The notes under the pieces are model-generated. The model saw nothing but the letters and a program-made list of their open reading frames with translations, made no database searches and was not told the DNA's origin. Position numbers and translations under genes: made by a program. A stretch of DNA of 64,000 nt from Arabidopsis thaliana. Taxonomy: Eukaryota > Streptophyta > Magnoliopsida > Brassicales > Brassicaceae. This document shows positions 227 through 45,422 of this stretch, one piece after another; the first letter of the stretch is position 1; every line of letters starts with the position of its first letter. The stretch spans positions 101 through 64,100 of the forward strand of contig NC_003074.8 of NCBI RefSeq assembly GCF_000001735.4. Reading direction: 5' to 3'.

Positions 227-1384
227 AATTTTCAAGTTTTGCTTGATTGTTGTAGGATGGTCCTTTCTCTTGTTTCTTCTCTGTGTTGTTGAGATTAGTT
301 TGTTTAGGTTTGATAGCGTTGATTTTGGCCTGCGTTTGGTGACTCATATGGTTTGATTGGAGTTTGTTTCTGGGTTTTATGGTTTTGGTTGAAGCGACAT
401 TTTTTTGTGGAATATGGTTTTTGCAAAATATTTTGTTCCGGATGAGTAATATCTACGGTGCTGCTGTGAGAATTATGCTATTGTTTTGCAGGTCCTGTTC
501 TTAATCTTTCATCGCTTTTGTGCTTATTGTCTCCTTGTCGTTTATGTTGAGTGGTGTTTGGGCTTTAGTCAGGTTCAGTCCAACCGTTGCTCTTCCTCCC
601 GTTCCTAGTCTCCTCGTCTCAACCTTTGATTCATATTGGGTTTGTTTCCTTGCTAAGAAGAAGTTTCGTTTTATTTGTTTGGATCGATCGACCTCTAAGT
701 TTACAAGGCTTTCTTCTCCCTAATGTTGTTGTTTGTTGTGGTTGTTAGCTGTCTCGGTTCTTCATCATTCTTGGTCTTGAGATTGGTGATTTTTTAGAGG
801 TTAGACTTTTCTCCTTGTCTTTGGCCTTCCTGATCTATTTTGATAGGATCGCGTTTTGAAGGTTTCTAGTTTGACGCAATTGGACGCAGCAGTCGTCAGT
901 CGTCGTATTCGGAAGTTTGCTCGAGGTTTCCTTAACTCATTTGTCTTGCGTGCCGAGTTGTGAAGCCTTGGTTCTTGGTTTCTGAGAGATCAGCTCTCAT
1001 CGTGATAGGAGGAGGTAGATGTTATTTTTGGGTTGGCCACGGACATCCTTAGTAAATCTCAATCGCGGGTGCTTCAGAAGATTTGGTTTACTTGTGCTTT
1101 TGGTCTTTTGTTTCTTTTAAGATTTAAGTATGTTGCTTCTATCTCAGTTTTGGGTTTCGACCTCTTGTGTTGGTGGTTTGAAAGCTTTTGTTTTGTATTA
1201 CTACTGTTTTTAGATTCCCTTCTATAGGGCTTAGCTTCCGGGAAAATTTCGTCTTCTGCCGACTTTGACTCCGGAGACTTTCTTGTCGTCCGCCGACTTT
1301 AGTTTCTCTTTTTGAGGATTTATATTTCACTTCGGTTCCAATCCAAGATCAATAATATAATTTTAAATGATAAAAAAAAATCAA
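227..1384. other. Subtelomeric T/G-rich non-coding stretch
   Basis: No credible gene is visible. The plus strand is strongly enriched in T and G (runs such as TTTTGG and TTGTTG), and the only open frames are short and unlike known proteins. Near 1257-1306 the motif CCGACTTT occurs twice in a short imperfect repeat. I cannot assign it to a transposon family. The far end may overlap the 3' flank of the TPX2-family gene on the minus strand. Confidence 0.5.
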
Positions 1385-38315: not shown

Positions 38316-38764
38316 CAGGAGAAAAGATGAATCAGTCGAGGCGGTGATCTTTTGGTTTGAGCTCTCTCGCCATACGTAATAAGTCCTCGATGCGACACGA
38401 TACCATTTTTCTCGATTTTTCCATTCCTTAAAAATAACCATCTTTTTTTTCATTGGGATTCAAAAACAACGAATCGTAAAATGTTGCTTACTGTTGGGTC
38501 CGGATCCGGAACTTTGGGTTGATTACCCGCTGGACAACACATGGATTTGACAAGCAAAAGTTAGTCTTGTCTTAATGTCAATTTAAAATTTAAAAGCAAA
38601 TAAAGAAGATAATAATACAATTACGTTTTGGGCTCTCGTCTTTATCAGTGGACTTATTAAAAAGGCCCATTAATCATTCTCTCAAGACATGGATTTTGCT
38701 GAGATCTACAAATCGAAATCGAAATCGAACTACGTATTGAAAGGAAAGAAAACAAAAAAAGACG

Positions 38765-38782
38765 AGGCATTTATGAATGCCT
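38765..38782 (-). other. Conserved stem-loop, copy 1
   Basis: AGGCATT and AATGCCT form a perfect 7-bp inverted repeat around a 4-base loop. The same stem, with one changed loop, occurs at 44123-44140, in each case 40-50 bp from a copy of the 76-bp element. On the minus strand it follows the element; a T-run comes a few bases later. Confidence 0.6.
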
Positions 38783-38831
38783 TATATGTTGTTGAAACAA
38801 AGAGAAGAAGAAGCAGAAGCTAGAGGGTCAT

Positions 38832-38907
38832 GACCATTGTTCGAAGCCGTGACCTTGAGGTTCCAAGCACAAGGAGTTCTTACCACAAAGCAATGGCCAC
38901 AATGGTC
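38832..38907 (-). other. 76-bp structured element, copy 1 (ncRNA- or tRNA-like)
   Basis: The ends are complementary: GACCATTGT at 38832-38840 and ACAATGGTC at 38899-38907. The element is roughly 77% identical by eye to 44180-44256, where the corresponding arms are GACCAATGT and ACATTGGTC, so the changed pair is compensated. On the minus strand it contains GGCTTCGAAC, similar to the B box of tRNA promoters, and a second small stem (GCCAT/GTGGT). It lies about 230 bp past the CGS1 stop codon and could be within the CGS1 3' UTR. It may be a small RNA gene, a tRNA-derived SINE remnant or a UTR structure. No full tRNA cloverleaf can be drawn. Confidence 0.5.
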
Positions 38908-39133
38908 GTTCACATGGGACCAGTTATCTAATTTAACCTCTTTAAGACGCAAAACGAACTAAACAGAATTTATTATATAGCACAACAAACATCATAATAG
39001 TACACGATTATTTCGGAACGTAAATGTCGCGGAACAATAGTTCAAAGACATCATTATTACGGTGACTGAAAACAGCAAAGAGAGATAAATAAAGGACAAA
39101 GAAACGACAGCGTTTTTGTGTGATGTGTCATTT

Positions 39134-41765
39134 TCAGATGGCTTCGAGAGCTTGAAGAATGTCAGCTTTGACATCTTCAAAGTCTTCAACTCCAAAGCTG
39201 AAACGAACCAAGTTATCTTTGATTCCATACTTTAGTCTCTCCTCTTGCGGCAGATCCCTGAAATCAAAACCACCCATTAGAAATCGGAAATTTGTTCGAT
39301 TTTGTCAAAGACGGAAGCATATGGAATCAAAGATAACTTTGTTCGATTTTGCCAAAGACATACCAGTAGGACATGATAGCAGGTTGGTCAACAATGCTTT
39401 CGCAGCCACCGAAGGATGGTGCAATGTAAGGAATCTTTAGAGAATCCACAAACTTGATTGTCGTTTCAATGTCTCCATCAATCTACCCAAGAAAGATAAT
39501 CAAGGTGTTCAGGATCATACTTAAATGCTAATCTGGAGTAGATAGAGATTAGGTTGGTGATAGATCATATTACCTCGAAACTGACCACACCTCCAAAACC
39601 AGTCATTTGTCGCTTGGCGAGTTCATGTTCGGGATGACTTGGAAGGCCTGGATAGTACACATGACTCACCTGCAAATCAAAATTGCATCGATATTTACTC
39701 ACATGACTCACCTGGATAGTGTCAGGATATTTACTCAAAAAAGAGATATTGCATACCTTAGGATGTGCCTCTAAAATTTCGGCCATTCTAAAAGCGGTCG
39801 AATTCTGTTGCTGTACACGAAGATGCAATGTCTTCATGCCTCGGATGATTAGGTACGCAGCGTTCTGTTAACAAACCTTTTATGAGAATTCATGAATTAA
39901 CAGCATAATAAGAGGGATAAATGAGACAGTCAAGTAATTTACTGGGTTAAGTGTTCCTCCCAACACATGATGCAGATTGCGAATTTCTGAAACCAACTTC
40001 AGTGAACCACAGATGCATCCAGCAAGAACCTAAACCACCGAGAAACAATCTTTGTTAATAACTAAACAACCAGTGAGTGCTCTTTTGAGATGTTTTACAA
40101 TATATGGAACATGTTTTACTCACATCATTGTGTCCTCCAATGTACTTTGTAGCAGAGTGCACGACAAGATCAGCACCAAGAGCAAGGGCTTTCTGATTCA
40201 GAGGTGTTGCAAAGGTGCCATCAATGCAAACCAGAGTTCCCCTCTTGTGGCATATTTTTGAAACTAGCTCAATGTCGACACATCTAAGGAATGGGTTTGT
40301 CGGGGACTCAGTGAAGAACAGAGATACCTGCCAGACAAGTCGGAATAAATTTGAGACACATACTCTCTTTCCAACTGTAAAAAGGACAATAATGTTACAG
40401 AACTGACCTTGAACTCATTCACTGCAGCTTCAAGCCCTGCGATATCAGCAGGATCAATCACAGTGACCTGGACATAAACATGATGTTAAACAATCAAGTT
40501 GAAAAACTGGAATTGGAAAAAGGAAGACAGTAATTAAAAAATTTAGATGCAATGGAAATCTTCTTACAGTGATCCCCAACTTGGGAAGAAAATTCTCCAT
40601 GAAGATCCTAGTCTTCCTGTAGCAATCAGTAGTAGTGACAATGTGTCCACCAGCAGGAACCAATGCCAAAAGCATAACAGTGCTTGCACACATCCCAGAT
40701 GCCATAACCAAAGTTGATTCAGCCCCTTCAAGTGCACTACAGCAATATATTAATCAAACAAATCCAAAAGCATCAACAACATAATCTTCAGGAAAGGCAA
40801 GTGCAATTATAAAACACATTATTAAAGATAAAATAATAATAACCTTATCTTATCTTCAAGTACCACAGTCGTAGGGTTACCATAACGACCATACTCGAAA
40901 CTCACACTCCTTTTCTCCTACAATAATTCAATTTTTTGAAGATAAACAAAGTCAATAAAACTAGTAAGAGATTCTTTCAACCTAATAGGTGTTATTCTAA
41001 TCCATAAAAGAAAGAGACTGAATCAATCAACGGACCTTGAAGTCAATAAGCTCAGCAGTTTTCTTGAAGAAGTAGGCAGATGTGTTGACTACAGGAGTAG
41101 TGATAGCATCCGTCACTATACCACGGCCTAATCTTTCACCTGTGTAAAACCTAATTTATCAATCTCCAACAACAAAATCAGATATGAAATGACTGAATCT
41201 GGTGGATCTAGGAGGTACCGGCATGAACAGTGAGGCTCCCATCGGAGCTCAAGAAAGAATGTTTGGAATCCGTCAGCTGTACACTACCTATCTTCTCCCT
41301 GATCCCCTCCTCGGCCACCACAACCTCCTCATCGACGCTTTTCAGCACGACGGGAGGCGCGGCAGCCACAGGGGCGGCGGCGGCGGACGAGGCTGCGGCT
41401 GCAGATGCGGCGGAAGAAACCGCAGATGCAGACGAGGTAGCAGCAGCCGCCGCCGCCGAAGGTAACGCGGAGGATGGGTTGTTGGACCACTTAGCCGCCA
41501 CGATCTGTGCAACACCGATGTTGCTACAGTTTCTACGGGCTTTAATGCTCAGCTGACGGACGAAATTAGGAGGAAATCTTAAGATCCTGGAGGATAATCC
41601 AGCGTCCCCGGTGAATGAGGAAGAAATCCCGGCGGAGGCATGGACACGACGGCGAGATGATCCACCGACGGGAGAACCGACGAGATCTGGATCAGAACGG
41701 CATTGAAAGCCGGAGATTGAGGAGGAGGAGAAGATGGTAGGGCACTGGAATGATGAGACGGCCAT
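39134..41765 (-). CDS. CGS1: Cystathionine gamma-synthase, first enzyme of methionine synthesis
   Basis: Eleven exons on the minus strand, 41765-41219, 41139-41036, 40917-40844, 40736-40568, 40467-40408, 40327-40124, 40029-39943, 39864-39757, 39669-39574, 39482-39364 and 39257-39134, encode 563 residues. The plastid PLP enzyme joins O-phosphohomoserine and cysteine to form cystathionine. Visible features are a Ser-rich transit peptide, an Ala-rich linker (about 98-140), EYGRYGNPTT, the PLP lysine K379 in HSATKYIGGH and a C-terminal KYGIKDNLVRFSFGVED. Exon 1 carries the MTO1 region RRNCSNIGVAQ (77-87), which arrests its own translation when S-adenosylmethionine is high and triggers mRNA decay. 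Starting at the ATG at 41765 places this motif at its published residue numbers, which supports that start. Known as MTO1/At3g01120. Confidence 0.98.
39203..39359. repeat. Inverted and direct repeats around the last CGS1 intron
   Basis: Intron 10 (39258-39363) holds two direct 22-bp copies (39291-39312 and 39338-39359, one mismatch, beginning TTTGTTCGATTTTG). It also holds a 27-bp segment (39320-39346) that is the reverse complement, with two mismatches, of exon 11 (39203-39229). In the pre-mRNA these two could pair across the 3' splice site. The simplest origin is a local inverted duplication of exon sequence into the intron. Confidence 0.85.
41505..41537 (-). promoter_or_regulatory. MTO1 nascent-peptide arrest motif within CGS1
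   Basis: These 11 codons encode RRNCSNIGVAQ, residues 77-87. In Arabidopsis this peptide in the ribosome exit tunnel senses S-adenosylmethionine, stalls elongation at Ser94 (here AKWS, residues 91-94) and leads to 5'-truncated mRNA. The motif and the stall site are intact, so the feedback should operate. Confidence 0.93.
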
Positions 41766-42715
41766 TGTTGTTTCGTTTCTCAATGATTCTCTCGTTCTCT
41801 TCTCTCTCTTTTTGTTTGTGGTTTAGAGGTGCGTGAGGGCTTTCTCCATGGGCGGGTTTTTAAGAAGCCAAATTGCTTTGTCGTTTTGTTTTTAACCACT
41901 CTGGTTTACATTAACTTGACCAGACTAAACCATGCCTTTTCCTCTTACTATTATTTTTCTAATTTTCTACGTTACAAAAATAGAATACGTTTATTGCCAG
42001 ATTTCTACTTACTTATCCAAACAATGAGTTGTTGTTGAGTTTTCAATCCAAGTTCCAACTACTCATTATTGTTAAACATTCAATTTCATGTTGAAAATTA
42101 AAATTTGTACTTACAGATTAATCACCTGAGATATTTTGAACGTACAGATTTTTTACATGAAATTTATTTTATTTTTAAAAAGAGAACACATCATAAATTT
42201 ACCAAATGTGGTGTTTTTTTGTTTTTGACTATGACCTCTTTTTTTTTTTTTTTTTAAGGTCTGTAGTCTTCAAATAGAATCTAGGCAACTACAACTACTC
42301 ACAATTTGTTAAAGTTGCAGCTAATTTATACATTTAAAGTCAAAAAAATAGTTGTGAGTTTGAGACCTTCTCTATTTAAAACTCAAATGTAGCATGAAAA
42401 CGAACGATCAAAATGTACTAATTAAATAATTGTTTTTTTAATTAATGAATTCAGTGTAAAAAGAAATTTCTAACAACTGGACCCGAAATATAAAATAAGG
42501 TCCACTTGTGTGATAATGGTCTGGGTCCAAACTTCAAAGTCTTTAAATAAACACACCATCACACTTCAAAAAGCTTTGTATTGATTTGTGTGGTGATGGA
42601 TACTTTGTAATTAATTATGTCATGTAAGAAAAGTGAAAAAAAAACACGGTAACTTTTTTACAGGGTCATAAAATTACGGGAAAAATAGAAATAAATACAA
42701 ACCGAATTGTATTAA
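41766..42715. other. CGS1 leader and promoter region
   Basis: A CT-rich leader (to about 41830) precedes AT-rich DNA with a 17-bp poly(T) run near 42239. An in-frame ATG at 41783 lies six codons before the accepted start. No other gene is visible. Confidence 0.45.
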
Positions 42716-42970
42716 GGGCATCTCCATCAGTGAGATACTTTCTTAGTTTCTAAAAAATAAAAGATATAAGTATTTTAATAAATATTAGTTATATAATTAA
42801 ATTTTAACAATAAAATAATATTTGACAAATAGATGATATACAAGTGTTTTTATGGGTTTCTCAGAGTTTCTCACTTGAAAGACTAATTCTACTCTCTCTC
42901 ATACTTTTTGATTATATTTTATTTTTATATTGAACAGTTTTTTAATGAGAAACCATTGATGGAGATGGTC
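42716..42970. mobile_element. MITE-like element with 14-bp terminal inverted repeats
   Basis: The left end GGGCATCTCCATCA and the right end (TGATGGAGATGGTC, reverse complement GACCATCTCCATCA) match at 12 of 14 positions. Both ends are flanked by TTAA (42712-42715 and 42971-42974), a probable target-site duplication. The 255-bp interior is AT-rich and non-coding. Size, terminal repeats and flanks fit a non-autonomous DNA transposon. CATCTCCA-type ends are, as I recall, common in Brassicaceae MITEs; I do not assign a family. Confidence 0.72.
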
Positions 42971-42974
42971 TTAA

Positions 42975-44122
42975 TAATCAGGAATCACTAAGAAAAAGAT
43001 TCGAAAGAGGACAGATATACCTCAAACTCAAAAGGTGTATTCAGGGACCAAAAAAGGAAATGAAAAAGAAAACGTCAATCAGACAATCACTTTCGTAAGC
43101 CTGAGCTTAATTGTTGGCAATAACAAAAAGACCAAAGCCGAATGGCTTATCCGAGTCATCTAATAATATATAATTATTGATCTTATTACAAAACTGTTTT
43201 AATTTGTTTTTTTCTTAATGTTATTTACGAAAATGCCACTTTGTATTGGTGAACGTGCGTTTTGAGACCTGAGGGTAGGTCGCGTTGCTTTGAAATTCGA
43301 TTATGGATTTGTAAGGATAGGTAATAGCACTAAAAATATACTATTCACTATAATTATGTGATTGATCAAAACAAACATAAATTAAAGATGCCGTAAGTTA
43401 TTTCTTAATTGATATGAAAAAGAACTTGAATCTTAAGAACATTTTATGTTCTTTTTTGTTTTTGGTCGAAACAATATGTTATGTCCAAGCAATGACAACA
43501 AAAAAACATAGGATTTGAGGTTTTAACTCAGGATTTAGACTTATATAATATCCTCATTGTATAAAAATATTTATTTATTTTCTATTAATAGTAAAGATTA
43601 TATTTTCTTTACCCTTTTAGTAATTTAAATCCAAAACTTATGTTAGTTAGTTATTATATATAGGGACTTAATATACCTCAAGTTGATGGTAGCCAATGGA
43701 CCACAAAAACACTTCAAGTGGTATTTATATTTAAATGTTGAAAATCATACTAATTTATTCTTTAAGTTCTCATCCGTCCAATGAAGAAAGCACCAACACA
43801 ATGAAATTAACCGATTACTGCGTGTCCCATGACTCCCATTAAAAGTATAATGATGAATATATTATATAGTATTGTATTATTGTAGTGTTCATGGTATGGT
43901 TTTGAATATTCTATGGATAGTGATTTTAAAGTTTCAAGATGGGAATATAAATGATGATTTGATTATTCAAACTAGACATAGAACGCCATATAGAGAAACT
44001 CTTCTCAAAATCTCAAAGAAGATACTCATCTTGTAACCTTTAATTTTGGGTGCAAACATTTAGGTTTCTACAATAAGTTCAAATAACTTAATAAATTGTA
44101 GAGAATGAAAGAGAACAGAAAA
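42975..44122. other. Intergenic AT-rich DNA
   Basis: No gene or clear repeat beyond the flanking elements. It includes several TATATA runs and long AT stretches. Confidence 0.4.
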
Positions 44123-44140
44123 AGGCATTTAAGAATGCCT
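44123..44140 (-). other. Conserved stem-loop, copy 2, with T-run
   Basis: AGGCATT/AATGCCT with loop TAAG (plus strand), matching copy 1 at 38765. On the minus strand the stem is followed directly by TTTTT, the arrangement that could end RNA polymerase III transcription. Confidence 0.55.
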
Positions 44141-44179
44141 CTATTACGTGAGAAAGAGAGACAGCGAATGTGTGAGTGT

Positions 44180-44256
44180 GACCAATGTTCGAAGCCACGA
44201 CCTTGTATAGCTCGAACACAACTTGTTCTTGCCACCAAGCAGTGACCACATTGGTC
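44180..44256 (-). other. 77-bp structured element, copy 2 (ncRNA- or tRNA-like)
   Basis: The ends GACCAATGT (44180-44188) and ACATTGGTC (44248-44256) form a 9-bp stem, and the interior matches 38832-38907 in the same orientation. A second stem (minus strand GTCAC/GTGGC) is kept with a G-T to G-C type change relative to copy 1. The minus-strand GGCTTCGAAC resembles a tRNA B box. It lies about 360 bp beyond the stop of the ATP synthase e-like gene. A 62-codon frame also crosses it, but the other copy does not keep that frame open. Confidence 0.5.
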
Positions 44257-44613
44257 GTCCTGAATAGCCAACTGCTTACTTTTAACTCTGCGCCACGGCG
44301 GATATTTATTTATTTTAATTGAAAACAAAAAAAATTCTTTTTTTTTTTTTTTTTTTTTTATAAATTATTTATCTGGTTAAGATGATAAAAATATGGTGTT
44401 TATTGAATAGCAGGAAAGTACCAAAGAAGAACTCAGGTTTAAACCAAAACGGGTATACGATTGCTTTGTCAGACAGAAGATTTTGATTAAAAAAACAGAA
44501 AGATGGAAAAAATGTCACCGAGGGAGATATAGCTTAAGGAGGAAAAGAACTACATTTAGAGATAACAATCACTTGGCTTCATAATCTTATTGAGAAGGAG
44601 AAGAAGAGTTGGT

Positions 44614-45422
44614 TTAGTGATGAGCCTTTGCTTCGGCCTTAATCTGCGAATTCTTCTTTATCTGCATATGAAGAAGAAGCATTTGTTGGTATCATCATAA
44701 CTTATTAGCAAATCACATCATAGTAGAAAATTAGATTCCACAATCTGAATGAATAAGGATTGGGATGCTCTAAAGGAAGCAACATAGGCTCTACTTTCAT
44801 ACCGATTTTCTTAGGGTTTGGAAACCAGACACAACATCGCAAACTTATGCTTTACAAAGGCAAGAAATTACATTTCAGTGATCAAGTTGCAAATCATTGA
44901 CAAACTCTTCTACTAAACATCAAGTCAAAACTATGATCATTCAGTGGAATAGGAGATCAGAACTCAGGCAGAAACATTGGGGTCAAAGAATCATGTTACT
45001 TGTGTATAGATGACCAAACCAAAAGGAGCAAAGTAGCATACTAATAGTCACGGCACACATGATTCGATCGAGAATATCATAATTCAAAAGCCATAAACAT
45101 TCGAATTTGCTGCTATAATGGCAAGTGTCAGATTTAGGATGTCAAAATGAAACCCAATGAAAATAATTTCTCATCTGATAAAAACAAGACAAGGAAGATA
45201 GAGAGATGTACCTTTAAAGCCTTGAGCTTGATGTTGCCGTAGATGAGACCCAACCCGAAAGCCGAAGCACGAGCAACCTAAATCGATACCAAAAAGAAAA
45301 GACTCGATGAACTCTTCAAAATCCAAAATTCGACAAGTCAAGGCTACAGATCGAGAAATTGATCCGGGGTTTACCAGAGCAAGAGTGCTGGTACCGGAGT
45401 AAAGTCCTGGAGGTGGCGCCAT
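44614..45422 (-). CDS. Mitochondrial ATP synthase subunit e-like small protein
   Basis: Three small exons on the minus strand, 45422-45375, 45277-45212 and 44661-44614, encode only 53 residues. A single membrane segment (VARASAFGLGLIYGNIKLKALK) contains a GxGxxxG pattern that closely resembles the dimerisation segment of ATP synthase subunit e (yeast SALGLGLFFG, recalled). It is followed by a short basic tail ending KAEAKAHH. Subunit e sits in the peripheral membrane part of complex V and supports its dimers and the crista shape. The site II cluster just upstream is typical of respiratory-chain genes and supports this assignment. The middle intron (45211-44662) is long for so small a gene. 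I recall At3g01130. Confidence 0.85.

Follow-up and report, generated by a model that had tools for sequence, protein, structure and literature searches.

The two short repeats that flank the cystathionine gamma-synthase (CGS) gene on the Arabidopsis thaliana contig NC_003074.8 are probably the 5′ halves of noncoding RNA genes of about 150 nt, which lie on the minus strand and belong to a family found across the genome. The window analysed here is the 64,000-nt stretch from position 101 to 64,100 of that contig, and in its numbering the repeats, called U1 and U2, occupy 38832–38907 and 44180–44256. The family would be one of RNA polymerase III (Pol III)-type noncoding RNA genes, its expression, polymerase and function all being proposed from sequence features, and it is apparently undescribed. 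That last status is provisional: no description was found in the open-licence literature, and a search of full texts with hairpin strings returned no matches.

CGS has its exons at 39.1–41.8 kb of the window and its best solved relative is 1i41, named cystathionine gamma-synthase; we take the gene to be CGS1, the name also used in the preliminary description of this DNA. That description reported two same-orientation copies of about 77% identity, each closed by a perfect 9-bp inverted repeat in which the only difference had changed on both sides, as in a selected RNA stem. Both copies are present, at an identity that alignment sets at 58 of 77 columns (75%), made up of 16 of 18 within the closing arms and 42 of 59 outside them. 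The stems are perfect in both, with arms GACCATTGT/ACAATGGTC in U1 and GACCAATGT/ACATTGGTC in U2, and the sole arm difference is a compensated pair. Given the divergence of the rest of the element, the probability that a stem of 9 bp remains perfect without selection is about 0.004. The minus strand folds better than its shuffles (z −3.5 and −5.0 for the two copies) and the plus strand less markedly so (z −2.5 and −3.1), and the best fold of both bodies is a single long rod. An inner stem that had also been proposed, GCCAT/GTGGT in one copy and GTCAC/GTGGC in the other, can form but is not part of this best fold, and forcing it costs 5.5 and 5.4 kcal/mol. Each copy does lie 3′ of a minus-strand gene, as first described: the CGS stop codon is at 39134–39136, upstream of U1 on that strand, and the stop codon of its minus-strand neighbour is at 44614–44616, upstream of U2 (read by eye). 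The elements are 227 and 358 nt downstream of these same-strand stops and, by eye, just past AATAAA-like sequences, and the two genes have no recognised family in common.

The other half of each element had been missed. Behind each body, read on the minus strand, come a poorly conserved spacer of 39–49 nt, a hairpin AGGCATTCwTAAATGCCT and a run of T, and the conserved unit is thus body, spacer, hairpin and T-run together, about 150 nt long and pointing in the same direction as the preceding gene. In U1 the body, delimited by alignment and folding, is a 76-nt rod (38832–38907, minus strand) with its 9-bp closing stem; the spacer (38783–38831) is pyrimidine-rich on the minus strand and little conserved when U1 and U2 are compared; the conserved 3′ hairpin AGGCATTCATAAATGCCT, recognised by comparison and covariation, is at 38765–38782; and a run of seven T, presumably a Pol III terminator, follows at 38754–38760. 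U2 has the same plan on the same strand, with a body that is a 77-nt rod (44180–44256) whose 9-bp closing stem differs from that of U1 by the one compensated pair, a spacer at 44141–44179 (from the U1/U2 comparison), a conserved 3′ hairpin AGGCATTCTTAAATGCCT at 44123–44140 (comparison and covariation) and TTTT directly after the last T of the hairpin, at 44119–44122. Possible TATA-like boxes stand 29 nt upstream of each closing stem, TTAAAT at 38931–38936 for U1 and TTAAAA at 44280–44285 for U2, both on the minus strand. With up to two mismatches, the family hairpin pattern has five matches at three places in the window, the hairpins of U1 and U2 each being counted on both strands, against 1.0 expected, and one in 100 shuffles has five.

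Relatives were sought across 119.7 Mb of the A. thaliana genome. A BLAST-type search, as the preliminary description had advised, matched U1, U2 and a further unit, U8, each to itself only; since U1 fails to match even U2, diverged copies could escape a search as coarse as this. Patterns made from the bodies, allowing two mismatches, single out U1 and U2 in the whole genome, the remaining matches being at control level. The hairpin pattern at the same stringency has 19 places in the genome, and the first search with it led to two sites separated by 376 bp, in which a stem pair has been compensated (AGGTATT/AATACCT) and which each have a body upstream in the transcript sense (U3 and U4, locus L055). 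Hairpin and T-run combined have 12 genome matches, the control having 3, and further hairpin patterns have 47 places and another 147, sites from the last search being chosen among the 100 matches listed. Nineteen hairpin sites outside the window, picked mostly for a stem that looked intact, were read, and 13 of them, a lower bound, qualify as units, having both a body and a T-run: U3 and U4, U8 (L060), U9 and U10 (L061), U11 (L062), U12 (L063), U13 (L065), U14 (L067), U15–U17 (L068–L070) and U18 (L073). The other six (L056, L064, L066, L071, L072 and L074) are hairpin-like sites that were rejected on reading, and the count leaves out some places with intact stems, for instance C1:1329543, C1:12509401 and C2:17917266. 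Eleven of the 15 units stand in same-strand tandem groups (U1/U2, U3/U4, U9/U10, U12/U14 and U15/U16/U17), which are located at C3:0.04, C3:7.26, C1:17.56, C4:8.53 and C1:11.67 Mb.

The consensus of the tail is a 7–8-bp hairpin, AGRYATT-N4-AATRYYT, followed by a T-run, and over the 15 units 119 of the 120 cells of the 8-bp hairpin are paired, the sole exception being the outermost pair of U1. Three of the eight pairs have changed on both sides, and partners slid out of register pair in 39–66% of cells. Not one of 500 shuffles equals the tail in paired percentage, in covariation score or in the number of cells with changes on both sides. The outermost pair, which lies outside the search patterns, is GC in six units, AU in four, GU in four and unpaired in one, and alone is only mildly above chance. 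A run of four or more T occurs within 14 nt after the hairpin in all 15 units. An identical hairpin-like sequence, AGGCATTCCCAAATACTT, is present at both C2:3567943 and C5:14557786.

The bodies are about 75–100 nt long, or 50 nt in U18, and the spacer between body and hairpin varies from unit to unit. The bodies of U12–U17, which had been located only through their hairpins, align over their whole length as one rod with 21 pairs, in which 89.7% of cells are paired (23–46% in the slid control) and five pairs have changed on both sides. By helix, pairing is 100% in the inner, 96.7% in the apical and 77.8% in the closing helix. Among 500 shuffles, one has as many paired cells, and none attains the covariation score or has as many cells with changes on both sides. 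A profile model built from these six bodies (R3) picks up U18, which had been left out of it, at an E-value of 8.5e-6, and finds U11 only at 0.68, though at the correct place; it has no match in 256 kb taken from elsewhere in the genome. On this sequence evidence the U12–U17 bodies are homologous to each other. Perfect closing stems of 8–9 bp with differing sequences are found in U1, U2, U11, U12, U13 and U18. They are less regular in U17 (one G–U pair), in U15 and U16 (internal mismatches) and in U14 (unequal arms), and U9 and U10 have 7-bp stems that end in a stretch resembling a B box. No clean closing stem is listed for U3, U4 or U8, that of U4 closing with a bulge. The spacers of U9 (L061, about 770–805, minus strand) and U12 (L063, about 297–330) both contain a CCTCTATAAATTAATA-like stretch, in opposite orientation, which is probably an unrelated repeat.

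What ties U1 and U2 to this family is their tail, T-run, strand, layout and closing stem. Their tails have no mismatch to AGGNATTCNTAAATNCYT, five of whose six exact matches in the genome are units, and their closing stems end 49 and 39 nt before the hairpin on the same strand. Homology of their bodies to those of the other units was tested and is not shown, and U1 and U2 may be a diverged branch or may carry a different body in front of a common tail. Body relatives were also looked for with a further profile model, R1, which gave no credible match in the region of chromosome 5 where the neighbour gene and the MYB gene next to it have relatives (L039–L048), at C1:12.07–12.10 Mb, the site of a second CGS-like gene (L049–L051), or at C3:64–94 kb (L052–L054). 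One body pattern was also run against bacterial, archaeal and viral contigs as a check for contaminating plant DNA, and had no matches there.

Candidate signals for Pol III transcription are found in about half of the family. A and B boxes 30–40 bp apart make up a type 2 Pol III promoter, common to short interspersed nuclear elements (SINEs), according to PMC7279448. In a simple scoring against consensus sequences, U8, U11, U12, U13, U14, U16 and U17, seven of the 13 units outside the window, have a combined A- and B-box score at the 0.2% level or better, U10 is at the 1.5% level, and none of seven orientations of the rejected sites reaches 0.2%. About half of the family's bodies contain stretches resembling both boxes, the B-box-like one standing just inside the closing arm. 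The bodies have a tRNA-like layout and fold as a rod, not as a cloverleaf.

One branch has given rise to retroposed copies. Searches with U3 and then with U5 found three more copies of the U3/U4 body, namely U5 (L057, 345–438), U6 (L058, 220–307) and U7 (L059, 214–308), all of which end in an A-rich tail and have no hairpin. Target-site duplications of 15 bp without a mismatch flank U5 and U7 (equalled in 0 of 100 shuffles), U6 has an imperfect one (3 of 100 shuffles), and among the 15 units with a hairpin tail no duplication is significant. This is the pattern to be expected of a source gene with SINE-like descendants. By eye, apparent gene starts follow U6 and U7 at a distance of no more than about 200 nt.

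A fuller version of this account, which we offer tentatively as plausible without being quite probable, is an undescribed family of at least 15 genes transcribed by Pol III, with fast-evolving structured bodies and a near-invariant 3′ module of hairpin and T terminator, arranged mostly in same-strand tandem and with one branch seeding its own SINE-like retroposons, as a plant counterpart of the relationship between BC1 and ID. In the probable reading given at the outset, Pol III would most likely start near the closing stem, driven by the internal boxes and perhaps aided by the upstream TATA-like box, and the body would fold as a rod. Transcription would then stop in the T-run and leave the hairpin and a short U tail as the 3′ end of the RNA, a possible site for La or LSm proteins. 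By analogy with BC1/BC200, Y and vault RNAs, the likeliest role of the RNA, stable and structured as it would be, is to bind proteins as a scaffold or decoy. The RNA of the U3/U4 branch has also been retroposed into SINE-like copies with A-tails. PMC2408557 describes the SB1 SINE RNA, a tRNA-derived plant RNA without a cloverleaf, as binding the double-stranded RNA-binding protein HYL1, and proteins of that kind are thus candidate partners of the family RNAs. If this reading is true, a very heavily studied plant genome holds a whole family of small structured RNA genes that no Rfam 15 model matches. Their 3′ hairpin, being conserved, would then offer a handle for locating such genes in other plants and for capturing protein partners, and the U3/U4 branch would display a noncoding RNA gene becoming a retroposon.

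Several results weigh against a single family of Pol III genes that includes U1 and U2. Sites were accepted as units on a reading of their sequences, a partly circular procedure, and the covariation of the tail was partly selected for, since seven of its eight pairs lie inside the search patterns. Some of the shuffling statistics are also unexceptional, the double-changed pairs of the tail being reached by 43 of 500 shuffles and its number of pair types by 375, and those of the U12–U17 bodies by 61 and 134, respectively. The rejected site L056 has a T4 run too, and the putative closing stem of U11 is absent from its best fold. As to U1 and U2 themselves, model R1 reaches U3 only at E-values of 1.8 and 3, models R2 and R3 of other branches do not pick up their bodies, and in pairwise comparison the two together resemble U3 and U4 only marginally (p values of 0.049 and 0.011, and of 0.28 for U1 alone). 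A and B boxes are at background (p 0.17) in U1, U2, U3, U4, U9, U15 and U18, and TATA-like boxes 22–42 nt upstream are found in six of the 15 units against four in the control interval, a weak excess. ARAGORN, run on the window and L055–L066, predicts no tRNA. The covariance search of Rfam that the preliminary description had called for gave no match in the window at gathering threshold, and among local stretches and unit loci searched at loose E-values none reaches a gathering score. That the boxes of U1 and U2 are at background slightly lowers our confidence in the Pol III family reading and slightly raises it in a role in the 3′ flank of genes, discussed below.

Among other explanations, an unlikely but substantial one is that the units are relics of T-ended SINE families, in which varied tRNA-derived heads share one 3′ tail recognised by the reverse transcriptase of a long interspersed nuclear element (LINE) and, once scattered by retroposition, have decayed. 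Several kinds of A/B-box head do share one short 3′ hairpin followed by T, and one head type has genuine retroposed copies in U5 and U7. According to PMC2774510 and PMC3747384, moreover, the SINEs of grasses may terminate in poly(T) and have in common with a LINE a 3′ end that includes a stem-loop, and UCU, given in the latter as lying in the loop of the plant LINE/SINE stem-loop, spans the border of stem and loop in many of the present hairpins. The CGAG flank given there for that stem-loop is absent from the present hairpins, however, and the same two sources add that the three Arabidopsis SINE families have no similarity to the LINE family described (PMC3747384) and that the SINEs of Brassicaceae carry poly(A) ends, poly(T) having been found in only five plant SINE families (both PMC2774510). 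Moreover, the hairpin-tailed units have no significant target-site duplications and mostly form tandem groups of two or three, the copies that were retroposed are those without the hairpin and with A-rich tails, and the 12 genome matches to hairpin and T-run are too few for a LINE tail. A distant relation between the present hairpins and the plant LINE/SINE stem-loop may still exist. The tRNA-derived SINE head suggested in the preliminary description fits in part: seven outside relatives have clear boxes, which U1 and U2 themselves lack, and one branch has retroposed copies, but the hairpin-tailed units are few, mostly in tandem and without significant target-site duplications. According to that description the element would be a plain retroposon if it existed in hundreds of copies bearing SINE tails and target-site duplications; the searches made found no such abundance.

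It is decidedly improbable that U1 and U2 are elements of the 3′ untranslated region (UTR) or 3′ flank of the upstream minus-strand genes that act in the formation of mRNA 3′ ends or in mRNA stability, although their position shortly past two same-strand stop codons and AATAAA-like sequences is what such elements would have. Those AATAAA motifs would place the poly(A) sites ahead of the elements, CGS and its neighbour share no recognised family, and U12 is, by eye, upstream of an apparent divergent gene start. The relatives elsewhere in the genome end in T-runs, about half of them with clear A and B boxes of their own, and a UTR element, one of the identities first proposed, has thereby become less likely. 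The structured noncoding RNA proposed beside it is well supported now that the downstream hairpin and the relatives have been added.

Precursors of microRNAs or small interfering RNAs are also single-stem foldbacks with significant folding energy, but the usual criterion for a plant microRNA is a near-perfect duplex of 21 nt, and by eye the bodies have bulges and short helices and no such duplex; with no Rfam microRNA match above threshold either, foldback genes of this sort are a very remote prospect. That chance inverted repeats were carried along in a neutral local duplication is scarcely credible and already disfavoured, since, common as short inverted repeats are and although only two close body copies stand out in the genome, the stem would survive with a probability of only about 0.004, the hairpin is conserved beyond an unconserved spacer and 13 relatives have the same tail with covariation. 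Two further candidates were rejected by eye, an inverted-repeat transposon, as the element ends lack a duplication and conservation extends to the hairpin beyond the element, and a protein-coding reading, as the 1-bp difference in length between U1 and U2 breaks any common frame.

Two other features were seen around CGS. A 29-nt inverted repeat (39201–39229 and 39320–39348, 93% complementary and 90 nt apart) adjoins a 25-nt direct repeat (39288–39312 and 39335–39359); it seems to be a piece of a CGS exon copied in reverse into the adjoining intron, and it could form a foldback across the splice site. Upstream of CGS, at 42710–42976, a pair resembling terminal inverted repeats, TATTAAGGGCATCTCCATCAGTG, of 23 nt, 87% complementary and 221 nt apart, looks like a small miniature inverted-repeat transposable element.

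The proposed family of Pol III-type RNA genes can be compared with several known systems. Its best members resemble nuclear tRNA genes in that an A box, TAGC...TTGG, comes after the closing stem and a B box, GGTTCGA, stands just inside the 3′ arm, but no cloverleaf or anticodon arm is seen, and both ARAGORN, over the window and L055–L066, and the Rfam tRNA models are silent. Y RNAs, nematode stem-bulge RNAs and vault RNAs are likewise small, with a terminal stem that closes the body and a U end; the present units differ in their extra 3′ hairpin after a spacer and have no Rfam match. Y and vault RNAs are named as Pol III RNAs in PMC12193147. The tRNA-derived SINEs of plants, such as S1/SB1 of Brassicaceae and the poly(T) SINEs of grasses, share with the family the A and B boxes of about half of its units, stem-loops and the want of a cloverleaf, and U5–U7 fit them by their duplications and A-tail, whereas the hairpin-tailed units are few, mostly in tandem, end in hairpin and T, and are without significant target-site duplications. 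A parallel to the U3/U4 branch is given by BC1 and BC200 with the derived or related ID and Alu SINEs, which also combine a Pol III-type body with a separate 3′ part, just as U3 and U4 have an A-rich spacer after the body and their retroposed copies consist of body and A-tail only; the present units differ in being from a plant, in comprising several tandem genes for which the use of Pol III is a proposal, and in carrying a conserved 3′ hairpin before the T-run.
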